Source: Propionibacteriaceae bacterium
GTDB taxonomy: Bacteria > Actinomycetota > Actinomycetes > Propionibacteriales > Propionibacteriaceae
Reading direction: 5' to 3'
Assembly (NCBI GenBank): GCA_027492675.1
Contig: JAPUEI010000085.1
Coordinates: 1 to 39,400 of the forward strand
DNA length: 39,400 nt
The position numbers and the translations under genes are program-made. Shown in pieces: positions 2,422 through 39,118 of the stretch. The notes beneath the pieces are model-generated. The model was not told the origin of the DNA. It saw only the letters and a program-made list of their open reading frames with translations, and ran no database searches. The stretch's first letter is position 1. Each line of letters opens with the position of its first letter.

Positions 2422-2479
2422 TCATCCCACACCGCCTGTTGGGGGACGGTGACTTGGGGAAGTCTTAACAGGAGTGGCC

Positions 2480-3325
2480 ATGTCGAATGGCAGGAATCTC
2501 ACGCGTCCACGCGTGTCCATCATCCTTCCGACGCTGAACGAAGCGCGCAATCTCGAGGTGCTGGTGCCCGATCTTCCGGAGCGCTTCGAGGTCGTCCTCG
2601 TCGACGGCGGCTCCACGGATGACACGGTTGAGGTCGCCCGGGACCTGCTCCCTGACGTCAAGGTCGTGCAGCAAACGCGCCGCGGCAAGGGCAACGCTCT
2701 CGTGTGCGGCATGCTCGCGGCGTCCGGCGACATCGTCGTGACCCTGGATGCGGACGGCTCGGCCGACCCGTGTGAGATCCCGGCCTTCGTCGAGGCTCTC
2801 GTCGACGGCGCCGACTTCGCCAAGGGCTCCCGCTACCTGCCCGGCGGTGGCAGCGACGATCTGACGAAGCTCCGTCGCGCCGGCAACCTGGGCCTCAACA
2901 TGGTCAGCAACTGGCGTCTGGGCACGAAGTTCACCGACCTCTGCTACGGCTACAACGCTTTCTGGCGCGACATCGTGCCGAGCCTCAACCTCCCCGACCC
3001 CCGGCTTCCGTCCCCCCTCGACGGCTCCCGGATCTGGGGCGACGGCTTCGAGATCGAGACGCTCGTGACCATCCGCGTCGTCCAGGAGGGCCACCGCGTC
3101 ACCGAGGTGCCGAGCTTCGAGCTCGACCGCATCTACGGCTCCAGCAACCTCCAGACCTTCGCCGACGGCCGGCGCGTGCTGCGCACGATCGCGGTCGAGA
3201 CGCTCGCGGGCGGCAAGGCTCAGAGAGGGCCGCTCACCACGGCCACGCCGCGTCACGACTCGCTCGCCGGGTGCATCCTGCGGGCGCGTATGGCCACGCC
3301 CGCCGTCACGGGGTTCGCTGCCTGA
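2480..3325 (+). CDS. Family 2 glycosyltransferase
   Basis: The product is a 281-aa GT-A enzyme. The opening VSIILPTLNEARN strand, VDGGSTDD at 41-48 (nucleotide binding) and LDADGS at 89-94 (DxD metal/sugar-nucleotide site) are typical of GT2 proteins, and the arrangement resembles polyprenyl-phosphate mannosyl/glucosyltransferases such as DPM1 and its relatives. No transmembrane segment is obvious, so it probably acts at the inner membrane face. The start at 2480 is supported by AGGAG at 2470-2474; a GTG at 2474 is in frame but overlaps the ribosome site. It is the first gene of the cluster, 44 bp ahead of a second GT2. Donor and acceptor are not determinable. Confidence 0.85.
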   Translation: MSNGRNLTRPRVSIILPTLNEARNLEVLVPDLPERFEVVLVDGGSTDDTVEVARDLLPDVKVVQQTRRGKGNALVCGMLAASGDIVVTLDADGSADPCEIPAFVEALVDGADFAKGSRYLPGGGSDDLTKLRRAGNLGLNMVSNWRLGTKFTDLCYGYNAFWRDIVPSLNLPDPRLPSPLDGSRIWGDGFEIETLVTIRVVQEGHRVTEVPSFELDRIYGSSNLQTFADGRRVLRTIAVETLAGGKAQRGPLTTATPRHDSLAGCILRARMATPAVTGFAA

Positions 3326-3369
3326 GGACGTGCGGCGGACCTGTCCGTCGCCACCAGGGGGCCTGAGTC

Positions 3370-4338
3370 ATGCGAACCGCGATCGTCGTCTGTGCCTACA
3401 CGCTGCTGCGCTGGGACGACATCGTCTCGGGGCTGACGGAGGCTGAGCACCAGCTCGTACAGACCTCGCGTGACGGCGAGGTCGTGCTGGTGGTGGACCA
3501 CAACGCCGAGCTGTACGCCCGGGCGCTGGCCGAGCTCGCGCATCCGGGCCTGCGCATCCTCGAGAACAGCCGCACGCAAGGCCTTTCGGGCGCGCGCAAC
3601 ACCGGCGTCACCGAGGTCGAGGCGGATGTGTACGTGTTCCTCGACGACGACGCCGTACCGCAGCCGGGATGGCTGGACGGTCTACTCGACCCGTTCTCCG
3701 ACGACGCCGTCATCATCACCGGTGGCGCCGCGACGCCGCGCTGGCCCGAGTCCGGCAGACCCGCGCTGCTGCCCGCCGGCGACGACCGCGGCGAGTTCGA
3801 CTGGGTGATCGGCTGCACGTACACCGGCCAGCCGCGCACGCGCTCCGAGGTCCGCAACGTCATGGGCTGCTCGATGGCCATGCGCGCGCGGGTGTTCGAG
3901 TCCGCAGGCCTGTTCGGCGAGGATCTCGGCCGCGTCGGCACCGTCCCCTACGGCTGCGAGGAGACCGAGCTGTGCATCCGTGCGGCCGAGACCCCGGGCG
4001 TACGGATCGTGTTCGAGCCGACCTCGCAGGTGCTCCACCGGGTGACGCCGCAGCGCACCACCTGGTCGTACCTGTGGCGCCGCTGCTACGCCGAGGGCAT
4101 CTCGAAGGCGGCCGTCGCCGAGCGCACCGCGCCGCGGAAGGCCTTGGCGACCGAGACCACGTACACCACGCACGTCCTGCCCAAGGGGCTGGTTCGTGAA
4201 CTGCGGTCCGTGCCGCAGCGCGGTCGGGCCGGGCTGGCCGGCGCCAGCGCGATCGTGACCGGCCTGGCAGTCACAATGGTGGGGTACGCCGTGGGGCGGA
4301 TCGCGATCCGAGGGGGTCGCAGGGGGGACAACACATGA
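3370..4338 (+). CDS. Family 2 glycosyltransferase with C-terminal membrane segment
   Basis: The product is 322 aa. The GT-A core shows VVDHN at 41-45, the acceptor-side GLSGARNTGV and the DxD-like LDDDAVP at about 91-97, all normal for GT2 enzymes of polysaccharide assembly. Near the end, AIVTGLAVTMVGYAVG forms one hydrophobic helix followed by Arg-rich residues, so the C terminus probably sits in the cytoplasmic membrane. Its stop overlaps the next start (ATGA at 4335-4338), which ties it to the methyltransferase-nucleotidyltransferase cassette. The specific sugar transferred is unknown. Confidence 0.85.
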   Translation: MRTAIVVCAYTLLRWDDIVSGLTEAEHQLVQTSRDGEVVLVVDHNAELYARALAELAHPGLRILENSRTQGLSGARNTGVTEVEADVYVFLDDDAVPQPGWLDGLLDPFSDDAVIITGGAATPRWPESGRPALLPAGDDRGEFDWVIGCTYTGQPRTRSEVRNVMGCSMAMRARVFESAGLFGEDLGRVGTVPYGCEETELCIRAAETPGVRIVFEPTSQVLHRVTPQRTTWSYLWRRCYAEGISKAAVAERTAPRKALATETTYTTHVLPKGLVRELRSVPQRGRAGLAGASAIVTGLAVTMVGYAVGRIAIRGGRRGDNT

Positions 4339-5579
4339 CCACGTCTTGTCGACTGTGTGGCGGCACCGAGCTGGTGTCGGTGCTGGACCTGGGCGCGAGC
4401 CCGCCGTGCGAGGCGTTCCTGCCGGCCGAGGCGCTCGATACCGCCGAAGCCACGTACCCGCTGCACCTGCGTCTGTGCCCGGACTGCCTGATGCTGCAGA
4501 TCCCGGCGCTGATCCAGCCCGACGAGACGTTCACCGACTACGCCTACTACTCGTCCTACTCGACGAGCTGGGTCGACCACGCGCGGCGCTTCGTCGACGC
4601 GGCGGTCGCGGACCTCGGCCTCACGAAAGACTCGTTCGTCGTCGAGGTCGCCAGCAACGACGGCTACCTGCTCCAGCACGTCGTCGAGCGCGGCATCCGC
4701 TGCCTCGGCATCGAGCCCAGCGTCAACGTCGGTGCGGCTGCGGTCGCCAACGGCGTGCCCACGCTGACCGCGTTCCTCGATGAGGAGCTCGGCGCGAAGG
4801 TCGCGGCCGAGCACGGCAAGGCCGACCTCGTCGTCGCCAACAACGTCTGGGCACACATCCCTGACATCCTGGGGTTCACCCGCGGCCTGCGGGCGATGGT
4901 CGCCGACACCGGCCGGGTCTCCATCGAGGTCCACCACGCCCTCTCGCTGGTCACCGAGGCGCAGTTCGACACGATCTACCACGAGCACTTCCAGTACTGG
5001 ACCGTGCTGGCCGCCGTCGAGGCGCTCGGGCTCGGTGGGCTGCGGCTCGTCGACGTCGAGCTGCTGCCCACGCACGGCGGGTCGATCCGGCTGTGGGCCG
5101 TGCCCGAGGACTCCACCGTGGAGGTCTCCCCGAGGGTCGCCAGCGTCGTACAGACTGAGCGCGAAGCCGGGCTGGACACGGTCGCGGGCTACATGAGCCT
5201 CGCCCGCGCCACCTCGCGGATCCGCGACGACCTCGTCGCCTATCTCATCGAGGCCCGCCGCGAGGGTCGACGGGTCGTCGGCTACGGCGCCCCCGGCAAG
5301 GGCAACACGCTGCTCAACTACTGCGGCATCCGGCCCGACCTCGTCGCCTACCTGGCCGACCGCAACCCGTACAAGCACGGTCGGTTCACCCCGGGCGTAC
5401 GGATCCCGGTCGTGCCACCCGAGCACCTGACGGCCGATGCTCCCGACGAGGTGCTCGTGCTGCCGTGGAACCTGCGTACGGAGATCACGGCCCAGCTGTC
5501 GGAGACGCTGAAGCCCGGCACGAAGCTGATCTTCCCGCTCCCGGCGCTCGACGTGGTCACGGTGGGAGACGAGTCGTGA
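4335..5579 (+). CDS. Sugar C-methyltransferase (TylC3/NovU/TcaB9-like)
   Basis: This 414-aa protein has the full three-part layout of SAM-dependent C-methyltransferases acting on nucleotide-linked keto sugars. An N-terminal zinc site uses C5, C8, C48 and C51. The SAM domain has EVASNDGYL at 104-112 as motif I. The signature YHEH at 215-218 matches the catalytic Tyr-Glu-His region of TcaB9-type enzymes. A C-terminal Rossmann-like domain begins near GYGAPGKGNTLLNY. Length is normal for the family. It overlaps both neighbours by 4 bp, implying coupled translation with the nucleotidyltransferase. The exact methylated carbon, usually C3, is inference. Confidence 0.86.
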   Translation: MTTSCRLCGGTELVSVLDLGASPPCEAFLPAEALDTAEATYPLHLRLCPDCLMLQIPALIQPDETFTDYAYYSSYSTSWVDHARRFVDAAVADLGLTKDSFVVEVASNDGYLLQHVVERGIRCLGIEPSVNVGAAAVANGVPTLTAFLDEELGAKVAAEHGKADLVVANNVWAHIPDILGFTRGLRAMVADTGRVSIEVHHALSLVTEAQFDTIYHEHFQYWTVLAAVEALGLGGLRLVDVELLPTHGGSIRLWAVPEDSTVEVSPRVASVVQTEREAGLDTVAGYMSLARATSRIRDDLVAYLIEARREGRRVVGYGAPGKGNTLLNYCGIRPDLVAYLADRNPYKHGRFTPGVRIPVVPPEHLTADAPDEVLVLPWNLRTEITAQLSETLKPGTKLIFPLPALDVVTVGDES

Positions 5580-6307
5580 AGGTCGTCCTGTTCTGCGGTG
5601 GCTACGGCATGCGCATGCGCGGCTGGGACGGCGAGGGCCTGCCCAAGCCGCTGCAGCTCGTCGGCGAGATCCCGTTGCTCGTGCACATCATGAACTACTA
5701 CGCCTCGTACGGGCACACCGACTTCGTGCTCTGCCTGGGCTATGCGGCCGACCAGATCCGCGACGCCGTGGCCGAGGCGCAGGCGACGCACGACTTCGCC
5801 CGGGACTGGACCATCGACTGCGTCGACACCGGCTTGGACACCCCGATCGGTGAGCGCCTCCACCTCGTGGCCGACCGGGTCGCGGGCGAGGAGCTGTTCT
5901 TCGCCAACTACGCCGACGTACTCTCCGACGTCGACCTCGACGAGATGCTCGCCTCGATGCGCGCCCAGCCGGACATCGACGCCATGCTGCTCGGGGTACG
6001 GCCTCAGGGCTCGTTCCACGTCGTACAGGCCGGCCCTGACGGCAGGGTCACCGATCTGTACTCGATCGGCGACCTCTCGCTGCGCACCAACGGCGGCTAC
6101 CTCCTGCTGCGCCCCACGGTGCTCGATCGACTTGGCGACCGCAAGGACCTGGTCCCGACCGTGTTCGCGGAGCTCGCCGCGCTCGGCCGCCTCGCCAGCC
6201 ACGAGCACGACGGTTTCTGGATGCCGGCCGACACCTTCAAGGAGCGCGCCGCGATGCACGAGCTGTGGGAGTCGGGCCAGGCGCCGTGGAAGAGGTGTAC
6301 GGAATGA
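5576..6307 (+). CDS. Sugar-1-phosphate nucleotidyltransferase (cytidylyltransferase-like)
   Basis: The product is 243 aa. VLFCGGYGMRMR at 4-15 followed by LPKPL at 22-26 is the nucleotide and phosphate-binding signature of nucleotidyltransferases, and HIMNYYASYGHTDFVLCLGY closely resembles the same region of glucose-1-phosphate cytidylyltransferase (RfbF). It probably makes the NDP-sugar used by the adjacent epimerase and methyltransferase. The usual GGxGTRL is changed to GGYGMRM, so specificity may differ. The GTG at 5576 overlaps the previous stop (GTGA) and has GGGAGA upstream; 4 bp are shared with the next gene. Confidence 0.75.
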   Translation: MKVVLFCGGYGMRMRGWDGEGLPKPLQLVGEIPLLVHIMNYYASYGHTDFVLCLGYAADQIRDAVAEAQATHDFARDWTIDCVDTGLDTPIGERLHLVADRVAGEELFFANYADVLSDVDLDEMLASMRAQPDIDAMLLGVRPQGSFHVVQAGPDGRVTDLYSIGDLSLRTNGGYLLLRPTVLDRLGDRKDLVPTVFAELAALGRLASHEHDGFWMPADTFKERAAMHELWESGQAPWKRCTE

Positions 6308-6954
6308 GCGTGACCCTGTCGGGCATCTCCCACGTGGTCGTCGCCGGCGCCCATTGCGACGACATCGCGATCGGCTGCGGGGCCACCCTGCTGGCCCTGC
6401 GCGCGGCCAACCCCGAACTGGTCGTGTCGGCCTTCATCCTGACCGGGGGCGGGACACCGCGCGAGGCCGAGGAGCGCGCGGCGGTGGAGGCGTTCGCGCC
6501 CGGCGCCGCGGTGACGGTCGGTGACCTGCCCGACGCCCGTACCCCTGCCTACTGGCTCGCCGCCAAGGAGTCGCTGGCGACGTTCAAGAAGTCCCTGGCC
6601 ATGCCCGCCGACCTGGTCCTCGGGCCGCACGCCGACGACGCCCACCAGGACCACAGACTGCTCGCCGAGCTGCTCGTCACGGAGTTCCGGGCCCAGCCGC
6701 TGTGGGGGTACGAGATCCTCAAGTACGAGTCCGACCTGCCCCGCGTGGACACGTACGTGCCTGTCAGCGCGGAGATCGCCCACACCAAGAGCGCTCTCAT
6801 CGAAGCCCACTACCCGAGCCAGAACGGCCATCCTTGGTTCGACGAGGAGGCCTTCCTCGCGTTGCTGCGGGTGCGGGGAGCCCAATGCAACACCCGCTAC
6901 GCCGAAGGATTCGTCGTGGCCAAGACCGTGATCGTGATCGGAGACATGTCGTGA
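6304..6954 (+). CDS. PIG-L family deacetylase
   Basis: The 216-aa protein carries both metal-site signatures of the LmbE/PIG-L zinc deacetylases: AHCDD at 16-20 (AHPDD in most members) and HADDAHQDH at 109-117. These enzymes remove acetyl groups from N-acetylated sugars. Its place inside a nucleotide-sugar cassette, overlapping the nucleotidyltransferase by 4 bp and the SDR epimerase by 4 bp, suggests it acts on a sugar intermediate or on the finished glycan. The Pro-to-Cys change next to the metal ligands is unusual but not necessarily inactivating. The true substrate is unknown. Confidence 0.82.
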   Translation: MSVTLSGISHVVVAGAHCDDIAIGCGATLLALRAANPELVVSAFILTGGGTPREAEERAAVEAFAPGAAVTVGDLPDARTPAYWLAAKESLATFKKSLAMPADLVLGPHADDAHQDHRLLAELLVTEFRAQPLWGYEILKYESDLPRVDTYVPVSAEIAHTKSALIEAHYPSQNGHPWFDEEAFLALLRVRGAQCNTRYAEGFVVAKTVIVIGDMS

Positions 6955-7967
6955 AGGTGCTGCTGACCGGACACCAGGGCTACCTGGGCACGGTGATGGC
7001 GCCCGTGCTGGCCGCCGCTGGACACGAGGTCGTCGGCCTCGACACCGGGTGGTTCGCCGGCAACGTGCTCGGACCGATGCCCGCCGACCCGCCGACCATC
7101 ACCCGCGACCTGCGCGACGTGACCGTCGGCGACCTCGAGGGCTTCGACGCGGTCATCCACCTGGCGGCGCTGAGCAACGACCCGCTGGGCGCGCTCGCCC
7201 CGGAGATCACATACGACATCAACCATCACGCGTCCTCCCGCCTCGCGCGACTGGCCAAGCAGGCCGGCGTCGGGCGCTTCCTGTACTCGTCGACGTGCTC
7301 GGTGTACGGGGCTTCGGGCTCCGGGCTGGTCGCCGAGGACGCCGAGCTGGCGCCGTTCACGCCGTACGCCGTGAGCAAGGTCCGGGTCGAGGCCGACCTG
7401 CTCGAGCTCGCCGACGACACGTTCACCACCGTCGCGCTGCGCAACGCGACGGCGTTCGGCTACTCCCCCCGGCTGCGCGCCGACATCGTGCTCAACAACC
7501 TCGTCGGCTACGCCCTGCTGACCGGCGAGGTGCTCGTCATGAGCGATGGCACTCCGTGGCGGCCGCTGGTGCACGCGGGCGACATCGCCGACGTGTTCGC
7601 GGCGGCGCTGGTGGCGCCGGCCGAGACCGTACAGCGCAAGGCCCTGAACGTCGGCGACGAGAGCAACAACGTGACCGTGGCGGAGATCGCCGAGGCGGTG
7701 GCCGCTGAGACGGGCGCGTCCGTACGGATCACCGGCGAGGCCGGGAACGACCCCCGCTCGTACCGCGTGGACTTCTCCCTGCTCCGCGAGACGCTGCCGT
7801 CTGTACGGGTGCACCGCTCGATCGCCGACGGCGCCCGCGAGCTGGTCGCGGCCTACCGCGAGCACGATCTGACCCAGGAAGCGTTCGCGTCCCGGTTCGT
7901 CAGGCTCGCGCGGATCCGCGAGCTTCAGGACTCCGGAGCGCTCGACGCGGACCTGCGAGCCACGTGA
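6951..7967 (+). CDS. NAD-dependent epimerase/dehydratase (extended SDR)
   Basis: The product is 338 aa. GHQGYLG at 7-13 is the NAD-binding glycine motif, TxxSVYGASG near 115-123 supplies the catalytic Ser/Thr, and Y139-AVS-K143 is the catalytic YxxxK pair. This is the extended SDR family that epimerises, reduces or dehydrates nucleotide sugars. It starts at a GTG overlapping the PIG-L stop (GTGA). Its last 43 bp overlap the 3' end of the convergent RmlC-like gene. As the only SDR in the cassette it may do 4-keto reduction or 4,6-dehydration; which one cannot be told. Confidence 0.83.
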   Translation: MKVLLTGHQGYLGTVMAPVLAAAGHEVVGLDTGWFAGNVLGPMPADPPTITRDLRDVTVGDLEGFDAVIHLAALSNDPLGALAPEITYDINHHASSRLARLAKQAGVGRFLYSSTCSVYGASGSGLVAEDAELAPFTPYAVSKVRVEADLLELADDTFTTVALRNATAFGYSPRLRADIVLNNLVGYALLTGEVLVMSDGTPWRPLVHAGDIADVFAAALVAPAETVQRKALNVGDESNNVTVAEIAEAVAAETGASVRITGEAGNDPRSYRVDFSLLRETLPSVRVHRSIADGARELVAAYREHDLTQEAFASRFVRLARIRELQDSGALDADLRAT

Positions 7968-35464: not shown

Positions 35465-36472
35465 ATGCCCTCCTCCCGCCGAGACCTGATCGCGCTGCTC
35501 GACCAGCAGGTGTCCGCGTGGCGTGCGCCCCTGACAGCCCCGCCTGTACGGGCGAGCGACGGGCTCGCCGCCGACTCCCCCATGGGTTGGCAAGGCGTGC
35601 CCTGGTACCGGCACGTCGGGGTCCGCATCCCCGCGTTCTCCGTGCTCGCCACGCTGTTGGTGGTGCTGGCCCAGGTGGTACGGATGGGGCTCGGTGCCCA
35701 CGGCTACCCGTGGTGGACGCCGATCCTCGTCGAGCTCGTGCCGATCGCCGTGGCGTACGGGCTCGTGGTCACGCTCCTCGAGGCTCGACGGCCTGGCATC
35801 GAGTACGCGCCCGCCCGCTGGCTCGGCCTGCCGTTCGGCCTCCTCGGCGGGGCCGTCGTGTGCCTCGTCGCCGCAGGCATCGTCTGGGCGATGGGCGGGA
35901 TCGTGTTCACGGGCACCAACCCCAACCCGCCGTGGCTGAGCCAGTTTGTGAGCCTCGGCGTCGTGGCCGGCATCGCCGAGGAGATCGCCTTGCGCGGCGT
36001 CCTGTTTCGCTACGTCGAGTCGCTGCTGGGCACCTGGGCGTCGGTCGCGATCAGCGCCGTGATCTTCGGCGCGCTGCATCTGTCCAACCCGCACGCCACG
36101 GTCGTCGGCGCCGTCGCCATCGCGTTGGAGGCCGGTCTGATGTTCGCCGTGCTGTACGCGCTGACACGGTCCCTGTGGGTGGTCGTCGGCGTCCACGCCG
36201 GCTGGAACCTCATGCAGGGTCTCGGGCTCGGCATCGTCGTGAGCGGCTCGTCCGACGTCGGGATGGGCTTCCTGGTCTCGCACCCCGCGGGCCCCGAGAT
36301 CATCAGCGGAGGCGAGTTCGGCATCGAGGCGAGCGCGGTCGCGGTGGGTGTCTGGCTCATCGTCGCCGCGTACCTGGGGTGGCGGCTGGTGCGCAGCGGC
36401 GGTGTCGTACGGCCGGTCTGGGTGCGCCATCGCACGCTGCCGGGCTCACCCGAGGTGACTCCCGGACAGTGA
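35465..36472 (+). CDS. CPBP-family intramembrane metalloprotease
   Basis: The product is 335 aa. The family core is clear: EEIALRGVLF (EExxxR) in a membrane helix, FGALHLSNP, then VVGVHAGWNLMQG (HxxxN), the residues forming the metal site of CAAX prenyl-protease-like proteins (PF02517). Around eight hydrophobic helices cover the protein after a charged N terminus. In bacteria these enzymes process prenylated or bacteriocin-related peptides or give immunity; the substrate here is unknown. It follows purU by 38 bp and may be transcribed with it. Convergent with the truncated ROK gene, 21 bp apart. Confidence 0.85.
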   Translation: MPSSRRDLIALLDQQVSAWRAPLTAPPVRASDGLAADSPMGWQGVPWYRHVGVRIPAFSVLATLLVVLAQVVRMGLGAHGYPWWTPILVELVPIAVAYGLVVTLLEARRPGIEYAPARWLGLPFGLLGGAVVCLVAAGIVWAMGGIVFTGTNPNPPWLSQFVSLGVVAGIAEEIALRGVLFRYVESLLGTWASVAISAVIFGALHLSNPHATVVGAVAIALEAGLMFAVLYALTRSLWVVVGVHAGWNLMQGLGLGIVVSGSSDVGMGFLVSHPAGPEIISGGEFGIEASAVAVGVWLIVAAYLGWRLVRSGGVVRPVWVRHRTLPGSPEVTPGQ

Positions 36473-36493
36473 GCGACTGAGGCGGCCGGAGCC

Positions 36494-37193
36494 CTAGAGC
36501 CCCTCGCGCAGCATCTGCCGCACACGGCGTCCCGATGACGAGACTCCGACTCGGTCGAAGGGCGAGGCGAACACCAGCGAGGCCGCGCCGCGCGCCCACG
36601 TGTCCTCGCCCCAGTTGCGCACGGTCACGGGGACCGTCCGGTCGCTGGGCAGGTGCGCCCTCAGGCTGCGGGTGACGCCCGGCTCCCAGAACTCCCACAC
36701 GTCCACGCCCTCCCCGGAGACGACCACGTCCTCGGGATCGAAGACATGGATGAGGGAGGCGAGCGCGTTCCCGAGTTGTTGCCCTGCCCAGTCGAACAGT
36801 TCCAGGGCGACGACATGGCCGGCCCTCGCGACGGCGTTCAGGTCGTCCTTGGTGCCGCCCTCGGGGAGGACCCCCAGCGCCACCGCACGGCGAGCGAGAG
36901 CGTTGTCGCCGATCAGCGTCTCCAGGCAGCCACGCAGTCCGCAGGCGCACGCCTCGCCGCCTGGCTCGACGAGGATGTGCCCGAGCTCGCCCGCGCCGCC
37001 GTGCGCGCCTCGATAGACGTGCCCGTCGAGGGTGAGGGCGCAGCCGATGCCGTAGCCGATGGTCACGAGGAGCCGGTCGTCGGCGGTCAGCCCGTCGTCG
37101 TACAGGCGGGCTGCGATGGCCAGGGCGTTCACGTCGTTCTCGACGAAGACCGGCAGGCCCGTGGCGTGCATGATCATCGACGAGAGCGGGATC
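36494..37193 (-). pseudogene. ROK-family regulator/kinase, 5'-truncated
   Basis: The open frame encodes the C-terminal part of a ROK protein. PVFVENDVNALAIAARL, GYGIGCALTLDG (nucleotide site) and the zinc motif GELGHILVEPGGEACACGLRGCLE are intact. A complete ROK repressor has an N-terminal HTH and the first half of the ASKHA fold (about 170 residues or more); here homology starts at about residue 1 of RIPLSSMIMHATGLPVF (37193) and then runs into GH31 sequence on the other strand. No start codon of the original gene remains; ATG 37177 is merely internal. The HTH is therefore gone and normal DNA binding is not expected. Confidence 0.75.
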
Positions 37194-38514
37194 CGGTGCG
37201 GTCGAGGCGATCGTGGCCCGGCATCGGGCCGACGACATCCCCATCGGAGCGGTCGTCATCGAGGCCTGGTCGGACGAACAGGGCTTCTCGACCTTCAACG
37301 ACGCCCAGTTCGTGCCTCACCTGGATGGCGCCCCGCACCAGGCGTCCGACTTCACCTATCCGCCGGATGCCCACTGGCCAGACCCGGCCGGAATGGTTCG
37401 CCGCCTGCACGAGGCCGGTATCCATGTGGTGCTGTGGACGATCCCGCTGCAGGCCGACGAGCCGGAGTTCGGCCCCGAACCGCACGCGGACGCGCGCCTC
37501 ATGGCGGAGCGCGGCTTCGCCGTGCGCGAGGACGACGGAAGCCCCTACCGGAACCGTGGCTGGTGGTTCCCCCAGGCCTTGATGCCTGACTTCACCGACC
37601 CGGACGCTCGCCAATGGTGGTTGGACAAGCGCCGATGGCTGGTCCGCGACCTCGGCATCGACGGCTTCAAGACCGACGGCGGTGAGCACGCCTGGGGCGC
37701 GAATCTGCGCTACGCGGACGGGTCCCGTGGTGACGAGGGCAACAACCGCTACCCGGTCCACTACGCCGAGGCCTTCGGCGACCTGCTCCGCTCCGAGGGG
37801 CGAGCGCCGGTGACGTTCTCCCGCGCCGGCTACACCGGGTCGCAGGCCCACGGGCTCATCTGGCCGGGCGACGAGAACTCGACCTGGGAGGCGTTCCGCC
37901 ATTCCCTGAACGCCGGCATCACGGCATCCGCCTGTGGCGTCGTGTACTGAGGCTGGGACATTGCCGGCTTCTCGGGGCCCGTCCCAGACGCGGAGCTGTA
38001 CCTCAGGGCGACCGCGGCATCGGCGTTCCTGCCCGTCATGCAGTACCACTCCGAGTTCAACCACCACCGCTTCCCGTCTCGCGACCGGACGCCCTGGAAT
38101 GTCGCCGAGCAGACGGGCTCCCCCGAGGTGGTCCCGCTGTTCCGCCGGTTCACCCTTCTTCGCCAGAGCCTCGCGCCGTACCTCGCCCAGAGCGCGAGGA
38201 CAGCGGTGACGACCGACCGACCGCTCCTCCGCGGCCTCTTCTTCGACTGGCCGGGCGACCAGAACGCGTGGGCCTTCCCCCATGAGTTCCTGTGCGGAGA
38301 CGATCTGCTCGTCCATCCCGTGACCGAGCCCGGCGCCGGGGACTGGACGACCTGGCTACCTGACGGCGACTGGGTCGACGCGTGGAGCGGCGAGACACTG
38401 CCCGGCGGGACGGCACACACGCGCGTCGTTGGACTGGACGTCATCCCGGTCTACTGCCGCGCTGCTGCCTGGCCAGGGCTCGCAGACCACTTCCGTCAGG
38501 CGGTCGCAGGCTAG
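37192..38514 (+). pseudogene. GH31 alpha-glycosidase, 5'-truncated with internal stop
   Basis: The sequence starts within the GH31 barrel: VEAIVARHRADDIPIGAVVIEAWSDE. The nucleophile region DGFKTDGGE and acid/base region WPGDENSTWEAF are present, and after the stop GWDIAGFSG follows, then the C-terminal domain to the TAG at 38512-38514. The N-terminal domain (usually about 200-250 residues) is missing. TGA at 37948-37950 stands where GH31 proteins have Trp (VVYWGWDIAGF), splitting the frame. GH31 enzymes cut alpha-xylosides or alpha-glucosides. An adjacent ROK remnant suggests a former regulator-enzyme pair. Almost surely inactive. Confidence 0.85.
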
Positions 38515-38620
38515 GGGTCAACGGGCGACAGAACCTCGACGACACGGAAAGCGCATCCCCCTGGGGGTATCGGCCCGCGCCCAGCAATCGCCGGTGTCTG
38601 ACGTCGTGCTTTTTTCGCAG

Positions 38621-38644
38621 AAGTACCCCGAGTATCGGGTACTT
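38621..38644. promoter_or_regulatory. Inverted repeat upstream of the DUF485-actP operon
   Basis: AAGTACCC (38621-38628) and GGGTACTT (38637-38644) are 8-bp perfect arms with an 8-nt centre, 60 bp before the DUF485 start. GAGTAT in the centre could serve as a -10, and T6 lies just upstream (38609-38615). A regulator of acetate uptake is a likely binder; none can be named. The stretch 38515-38620 has nothing else recognised. Confidence 0.5.
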
Positions 38645-38704: not shown

Positions 38705-39118
38705 ATGGCGACCCAAGATCCGGTCTCGACCGGAGATCCTGAACGGCACCTCCCGGCCGATCACAACCCCCTGCCCGCCCTGGACGCAGACCAGCCCGCA
38801 GCCCTGAGCGCCTCGGCGTTCGAGGAGGTCCAGAGCTCGGCGGAGTTCATCGAGCTGCGTAGCCGGTTCCGCCGGTTCGCGTTCCCCATGACCGCGGCGT
38901 TCCTGATCTGGTACTTCGCCTACGTCCTGCTCTCCACCTACGCGGAGAGCTTCATGAACATTCGTGTCTTCGGGAACGTGAGCCTCGGCATCCTGCTCGG
39001 CTTGCTCCAGTTCGTCACGACCTTCCTCATCACGTGGCTCTACATCCGCCACGCCAACAAGAACCTCGACCCGATCGCGACCTCGCTGCGGAACAAGTTC
39101 GAAGGGAGCGCGAAGTGA
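38705..39118 (+). CDS. DUF485 membrane protein (YjcH-like)
   Basis: The 137-aa protein has a polar N-terminal tail of about 50 residues, then two transmembrane helices (FAFPMTAAFLIWYFAYVLLSTY, then NVSLGILLGLLQFVTTFLITWLY) ending in YIRHANKNLDPIA, the typical DUF485 pattern. In many bacteria this small protein is encoded just ahead of actP and cotranscribed. Here it overlaps actP by 4 bp (GTGA). AAGGAG precedes the ATG by about 6 nt. It probably assembles with or modulates the acetate transporter, but its role is not established. Confidence 0.9.
   Translation: MATQDPVSTGDPERHLPADHNPLPALDADQPAALSASAFEEVQSSAEFIELRSRFRRFAFPMTAAFLIWYFAYVLLSTYAESFMNIRVFGNVSLGILLGLLQFVTTFLITWLYIRHANKNLDPIATSLRNKFEGSAK

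Follow-up and report, generated by a model that had tools for sequence, protein, structure and literature searches.

The window is a single stretch of 39,400 bp and represents the whole of contig C85 of genome G000, a 3.27-Mb draft in 98 contigs that is 97.7% complete. Two truncated genes meet in it head to head. The first, on the minus strand at 36494-37198, is the C-terminal remnant of a gene for a ROK-family repressor and consists of 234 codons and a stop codon. The second, on the plus strand at 37198-38514, is the C-terminal remnant of a gene for a GH31 glycosidase and consists of 438 codons, one internal TGA included, and a stop codon. An earlier note on this DNA had described a head-to-head junction of two gene bodies without starts, and this description holds.

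The reference for comparison is G002, a genome of the window's genus, in which the corresponding cluster is intact. It lies on a contig of 7,257 bp, JACRAA010000313.1 (L023, identical to locus L069). The ROK gene is found on the minus strand at about 253-1431. It is followed on the plus strand by two permease genes (1575-2450 and 2443-3378), the gene for a solute-binding protein (SBP, about 3417-4673), and the GH31 gene (4754-7018).

In a blastn search against G002, window positions 36496-37199 align with L023 255-961 at 82% identity, and positions 37198-38482 align with L023 5708-6992 at 78% identity, both plus/plus and with an E value of 0.0. The two alignments overlap by 2 bp, placing the junction at 37198-37199. 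The earlier note had rightly recognized a junction but set it at about 37192/37193, some 6 bp off. On the G002 contig the two aligned ends are collinear and in identical orientation, with 4,746 bp between them. This size and the breakpoints are read off a single relative at about 80% identity, and the sequence of the window before the deletion may have differed.

The intervening DNA contains ROK residues 1-157, both permeases, the solute-binding protein, and GH31 residues 1-318, all of which are absent from the window. The 143-bp intergenic region between the ROK gene and the first permease gene is likewise absent, taking the ATG at L023 1431 as the ROK start. None of this DNA was found relocated within the G000 assembly (97.7% complete); beyond the junction halves there are five matches only, at 66-76% identity. 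The comparison can be explained by a single deletion: each end of the L023 cluster matches the window as far as the junction, and the 4,746 bp in the middle are missing.

What is left of the ROK gene encodes residues 158-392 of the 392-residue G002 protein, with 87% amino acid identity, and matches only positions 93-291 of the 294 in the Pfam ROK profile PF00480. Read from an ATG at 37177, this remnant remains an open frame. A ROK repressor of the NagC/Mlc type has an N-terminal DNA-binding part and a ROK domain, a combination that the window copy does not have. The G002 protein itself matches positions 13-383 of 399 in the NagC profile with 157.6 bits, below the curated cut-off of 650.

The GH31 remnant corresponds to residues 319-750 of the 754-residue G002 protein, with 81% amino acid identity. 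It matches PF01055 from position 29 of 328, and PF21365. The intact G002 protein has PF21568, PF13802, PF01055, and PF21365. Thus the Pfam matches agree with the alignments, and the earlier claim that both genes lack their N-terminal parts is borne out. An in-frame TGA at 37948-37950 on the plus strand, of which the earlier note made no mention, stands at a position that encodes tryptophan in all three intact relatives aligned. An in-frame GTG is found at 37213, and the frame is stopped after 250 codons. The N-terminal domains, complete barrel, and open frame of an AIMA/CADE-like GH31 enzyme are not found together in the window copy.

The usual form of the cluster can be seen in 89 related loci, made up of 80 named loci (the best 80 of 257 encoding a relative) and nine regions from other genomes. 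Genes were counted by matches at E <= 1e-12 within 9 kb upstream of GH31, with complete genes not required. The ROK gene, both permeases, and the SBP are matched upstream of GH31 in 80 of the 89, although the ROK match is partial in L040 and L095. Because L069 is the G002 contig, and the contigs of L032 and L098 are equal in length, at least one cluster has probably been counted twice. In L101, L112, and L131 the ROK match comes in two pieces, which may reflect either an insertion or separate damage to the regulator gene. The loci outside the 80 are L075, L082, L097, L110, L115, L127, L135, L142, and L146. In six of these (L075, L082, L097, L110, L135, and L146) the contig extends no more than 82-3,097 bp upstream of the GH31 match. 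L142 has 3,075 bp there and no match to a cluster gene. No SBP match was found in L115, where the ROK gene and permeases are matched, or in L127, where the permeases are.

The orientation of the ROK gene divides the loci. It is co-directional in 77 of the 89 and divergent in three (L069, L070, and L071), which are the named loci closest by GH31 sequence (among the best 80 of 257) and come from MAGs titled Actinomycetota or Propionibacteriaceae. In the co-directional loci the gap between the aligned parts of SBP and GH31 is 1,059-1,359 bp in 69 of 77, 1,559-2,520 bp in five, and 20-62 bp in L077, L088, and L096; in the three divergent loci it is 84-145 bp. The gap of L098, the only one checked, holds a GH15-type relative of 5z3a, which a passage of PMC12446779 identifies as the isomaltose glucohydrolase of Kribbella flavida. 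The ROK/ABC importer/GH31 cluster of Actinomycetota, as in L098 (Kribbella sp. ALI-6-A), has the same genes in the same order as the G002 cluster. It differs in its co-directional ROK gene and in the extra gene between SBP and GH31, whereas G002, L070, and L071 have a divergent ROK gene and a short gap. Compared with the L098 type, the window retains only the two outer gene ends.

This survey corrects the picture of a deletion between two neighbouring genes. In G002, L070, and L071 two permeases and a solute-binding protein separate ROK from GH31. The notion of two adjacent divergent genes is wrong, since the ROK gene is divergent to a permease gene and the GH31 gene is the last of the opposite gene row. 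An intact relative of the kind that the earlier note had proposed to look for does exist and allowed the missing segment to be mapped, with ROK and GH31 not adjacent in it. Similarly, the divergent promoter region said to be gone is indeed absent, as the 143-bp intergenic region with its putative promoter, but it was not common to ROK and GH31. A natural head-to-head arrangement of ROK and GH31 was considered and rejected: none of the 89 loci has ROK beside GH31 with no importer between them, though in six the contig ends too near for the arrangement to show.

The remnants are flanked by genes for membrane proteins. On the left, at 35465-36472 on the plus strand, is a gene called CPBP-type on weak NCBIfam matches, all below curated cut-offs; it is a conserved neighbour in G003. 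On the right, at 38705-39118 on the plus strand, a gene for a small membrane protein with no NCBIfam match, which we take to be DUF485-like, lies upstream of a symporter-like gene, presumably of the acetate-symporter-like kind. The symporter-like gene is cut at the window end and continues in contig C96.

In G003, 138 bp separate the aligned part of the CPBP-type gene from the region preceding the DUF485-like gene. In G001, where the CPBP gene is absent too, PurU is followed by 64 bp and then by that same region. The ROK-GH31 remnant (36473-38628) therefore occupies a site that is empty in these two relatives. The flanks of the G002 cluster, about 250 bp on each side, have no match to either side of the window. 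The cluster may either have been gained at the window site or lost in G003 and G001.

With G002 as proxy, no direct repeat is found at the two breakpoints of the deletion beyond the 2-bp overlap, and within 30 bp of them the two sites have no word of more than 6 bp in common. This is what chance would give: the longest shared word averages 5.8 over 300 shuffles, of which 57% reach 6, and 6.0 over 300 random window pairs, of which 67% do. The short direct repeats that the earlier note had raised thus do not appear beyond chance, and the deletion looks repeat-less (illegitimate) in the sequence. Recent deletion pseudogenes in bacterial genomes combine a repeat-less deletion with truncation of the genes beside it and an initial point disablement, and the window agrees with this pattern. 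It is distinctive among them only by its head-to-head geometry.

A deletion, rather than an insertion or relocation, is indicated because both remnants are incomplete genes, the cluster is usually found complete, and the missing DNA is found nowhere else in G000. The ancestor of the window would have had a ROK gene on the minus strand and, on the plus strand, two permease genes, the gene for a solute-binding protein, and the GH31 gene. A deletion of about 4.7 kb would then have joined the ROK and GH31 genes head to head, with each breakpoint in mid-gene. The losses would comprise the N-terminal DNA-binding half of the ROK protein, the intergenic region between the ROK and permease genes, all of the ABC importer, the N-terminal domains of the GH31 enzyme, and the first few residues of its catalytic barrel. 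Both gene bodies would be left with neither a native start nor a promoter of their own. The stop codon in the GH31 body presumably arose after the deletion.

Judged from the alignments, an entire sugar importer and the starts of the genes on each side appear to have been lost in one deletion of about 4.7 kb, and we infer that the junction represents one event. The earlier note had proposed a single deletion of over a kilobase; one deletion remains the simplest reading, but by comparison with G002 it is far larger, at about 4.7 kb, and includes three complete genes. Very probably, then, this lineage's cluster of ROK gene, two permeases, SBP, and GH31 was hit by one recent, repeat-less deletion of this size.

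It is improbable that the junction is an assembly artefact, with the contig joining places that lie 4.7 kb apart in the real genome. G000 is a draft and the junction is known from the assembled contig alone; the TGA could likewise be a consensus error. The contig ends, 1-55 and 39346-39400, are identical over exactly 55 bp to the two ends of contig C96, which suggests a de Bruijn assembler with k=55. Such an assembler would make a false join only where about 55 bp are shared, and near the breakpoints in G002 no shared word exceeds 6 bp. A false join is therefore unlikely, since an assembler of this kind should not join places with 6 bp in common without spanning reads. The window also contains no N, and the DNA that would have been skipped is absent from the nearly complete assembly. 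Several successive deletions in place of one are still a little less probable. Nested events would leave a single final junction and be indistinguishable by sequence, but the remnants show no accelerated evolution and one disablement, leaving little time for a series.

Another possibility is that short functional products are still made from both bodies, namely a ROK C-terminal domain that senses sugar and a GH31 catalytic fragment. The open frames, with an in-frame ATG for ROK and GTG for GH31, would allow this, and dN/dS between G000 and G002 is low, at 0.105 for ROK and 0.116 for GH31 (0.155 for PurU, the control). However, recency accounts equally well for the low dN/dS. Both native starts are gone along with the ROK/permease intergenic region, the GH31 frame is interrupted by its stop, and the layout is seen in none of the related loci, allowing for the six cut by contig ends. 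Such products are highly improbable.

Evidence for the age of the event can be provided by assigning amino acid changes to branches. Changes were polarised with L070 and L071 as outgroups for ROK and GH31, and with other outgroups, G003/G001, for PurU. In ROK (211 sites), six changes fall on the G000 branch and 11 on the G002 branch, and both differ at six sites. In GH31 (390 sites), the numbers are 22 (stop included), 19, and 24, and in PurU (266 sites) they are 11, seven, and nine. When ROK and GH31 are pooled, 28 changes on the G000 branch compare with 30 on the G002 branch (binomial p 0.90), giving no G000 excess. The remnants contain one stop and no frameshift in 672 codons. In a neutral simulation, finding at most one disablement becomes improbable (P below 0.05) once about 0.02-0.1 substitutions per site have accumulated, the value varying with the indel rate, so that constraint would have been lost more recently than this.

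Because change in the remnants is not accelerated, their reading frames persist, and they contain only one in-frame TGA, the deletion would be recent relative to the G000/G002 split (dS 0.5-1.1). Between these genomes dS is 1.09 for GH31 and 0.72 for ROK, compared with 0.54 for PurU, a single control gene. A horizontal origin of the window's cluster was considered on this contrast, which is suggestive; with one control gene only, it is not concluded.

The GH31 type occurs in two of the seven genomes of the genus, broken in G000 and intact in G002. The other genomes give matches of 27-36% identity only, and G006 none; G001, G002, G003, and G006 are drafts of 69-86% completeness. This distribution, together with the flanks joined without the cluster in G003 and G001 (the latter also without the CPBP gene), gives rise to a tentative and rather unlikely further reading, that the deletion still segregates in the living population and that loss of the importer is favoured rather than neutral.

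The function that was lost can be approached through solved structures. The closest to the G002 GH31 protein is 5x3i (E 6e-284), presumably of Kribbella origin, followed by 5f7s (4e-265) and 5i0g (5e-264). For the G002 SBP the closest is 5f7v (Lmo0181; E 1e-90), and the next match is at 1e-26. We take Lmo0181 to be a cycloalternan-binding protein of Listeria. No gene for an ATPase was seen in the L023 cluster; in such actinobacterial systems an ATPase common to several importers is usual. A passage of PMC9061262 identifies 5I0G as TpCADE, the cycloalternan-degrading enzyme of Trueperella pyogenes. TpCADE is thus among the nearest solved sequences of the intact G002 enzyme, whereas the window copy is without the first 318 residues and contains a stop. 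The best guess from these similarities is that the lost cluster imported and cleaved cycloalternan or a related oligosaccharide of the isomaltosyl/nigerosyl or isomalto type.

The ROK/importer/GH31 locus is a case of ordinary gene loss at an early stage. Judged by titles, none of the literature matches listed is about such a deletion. The locus represents a clean, young example of the loss of a sugar-uptake cluster. Its two stumps should not be read as a divergent gene pair, and the lost function, probably the import of alpha-glucan oligosaccharides, should not be assigned to the species from the annotation that remains.
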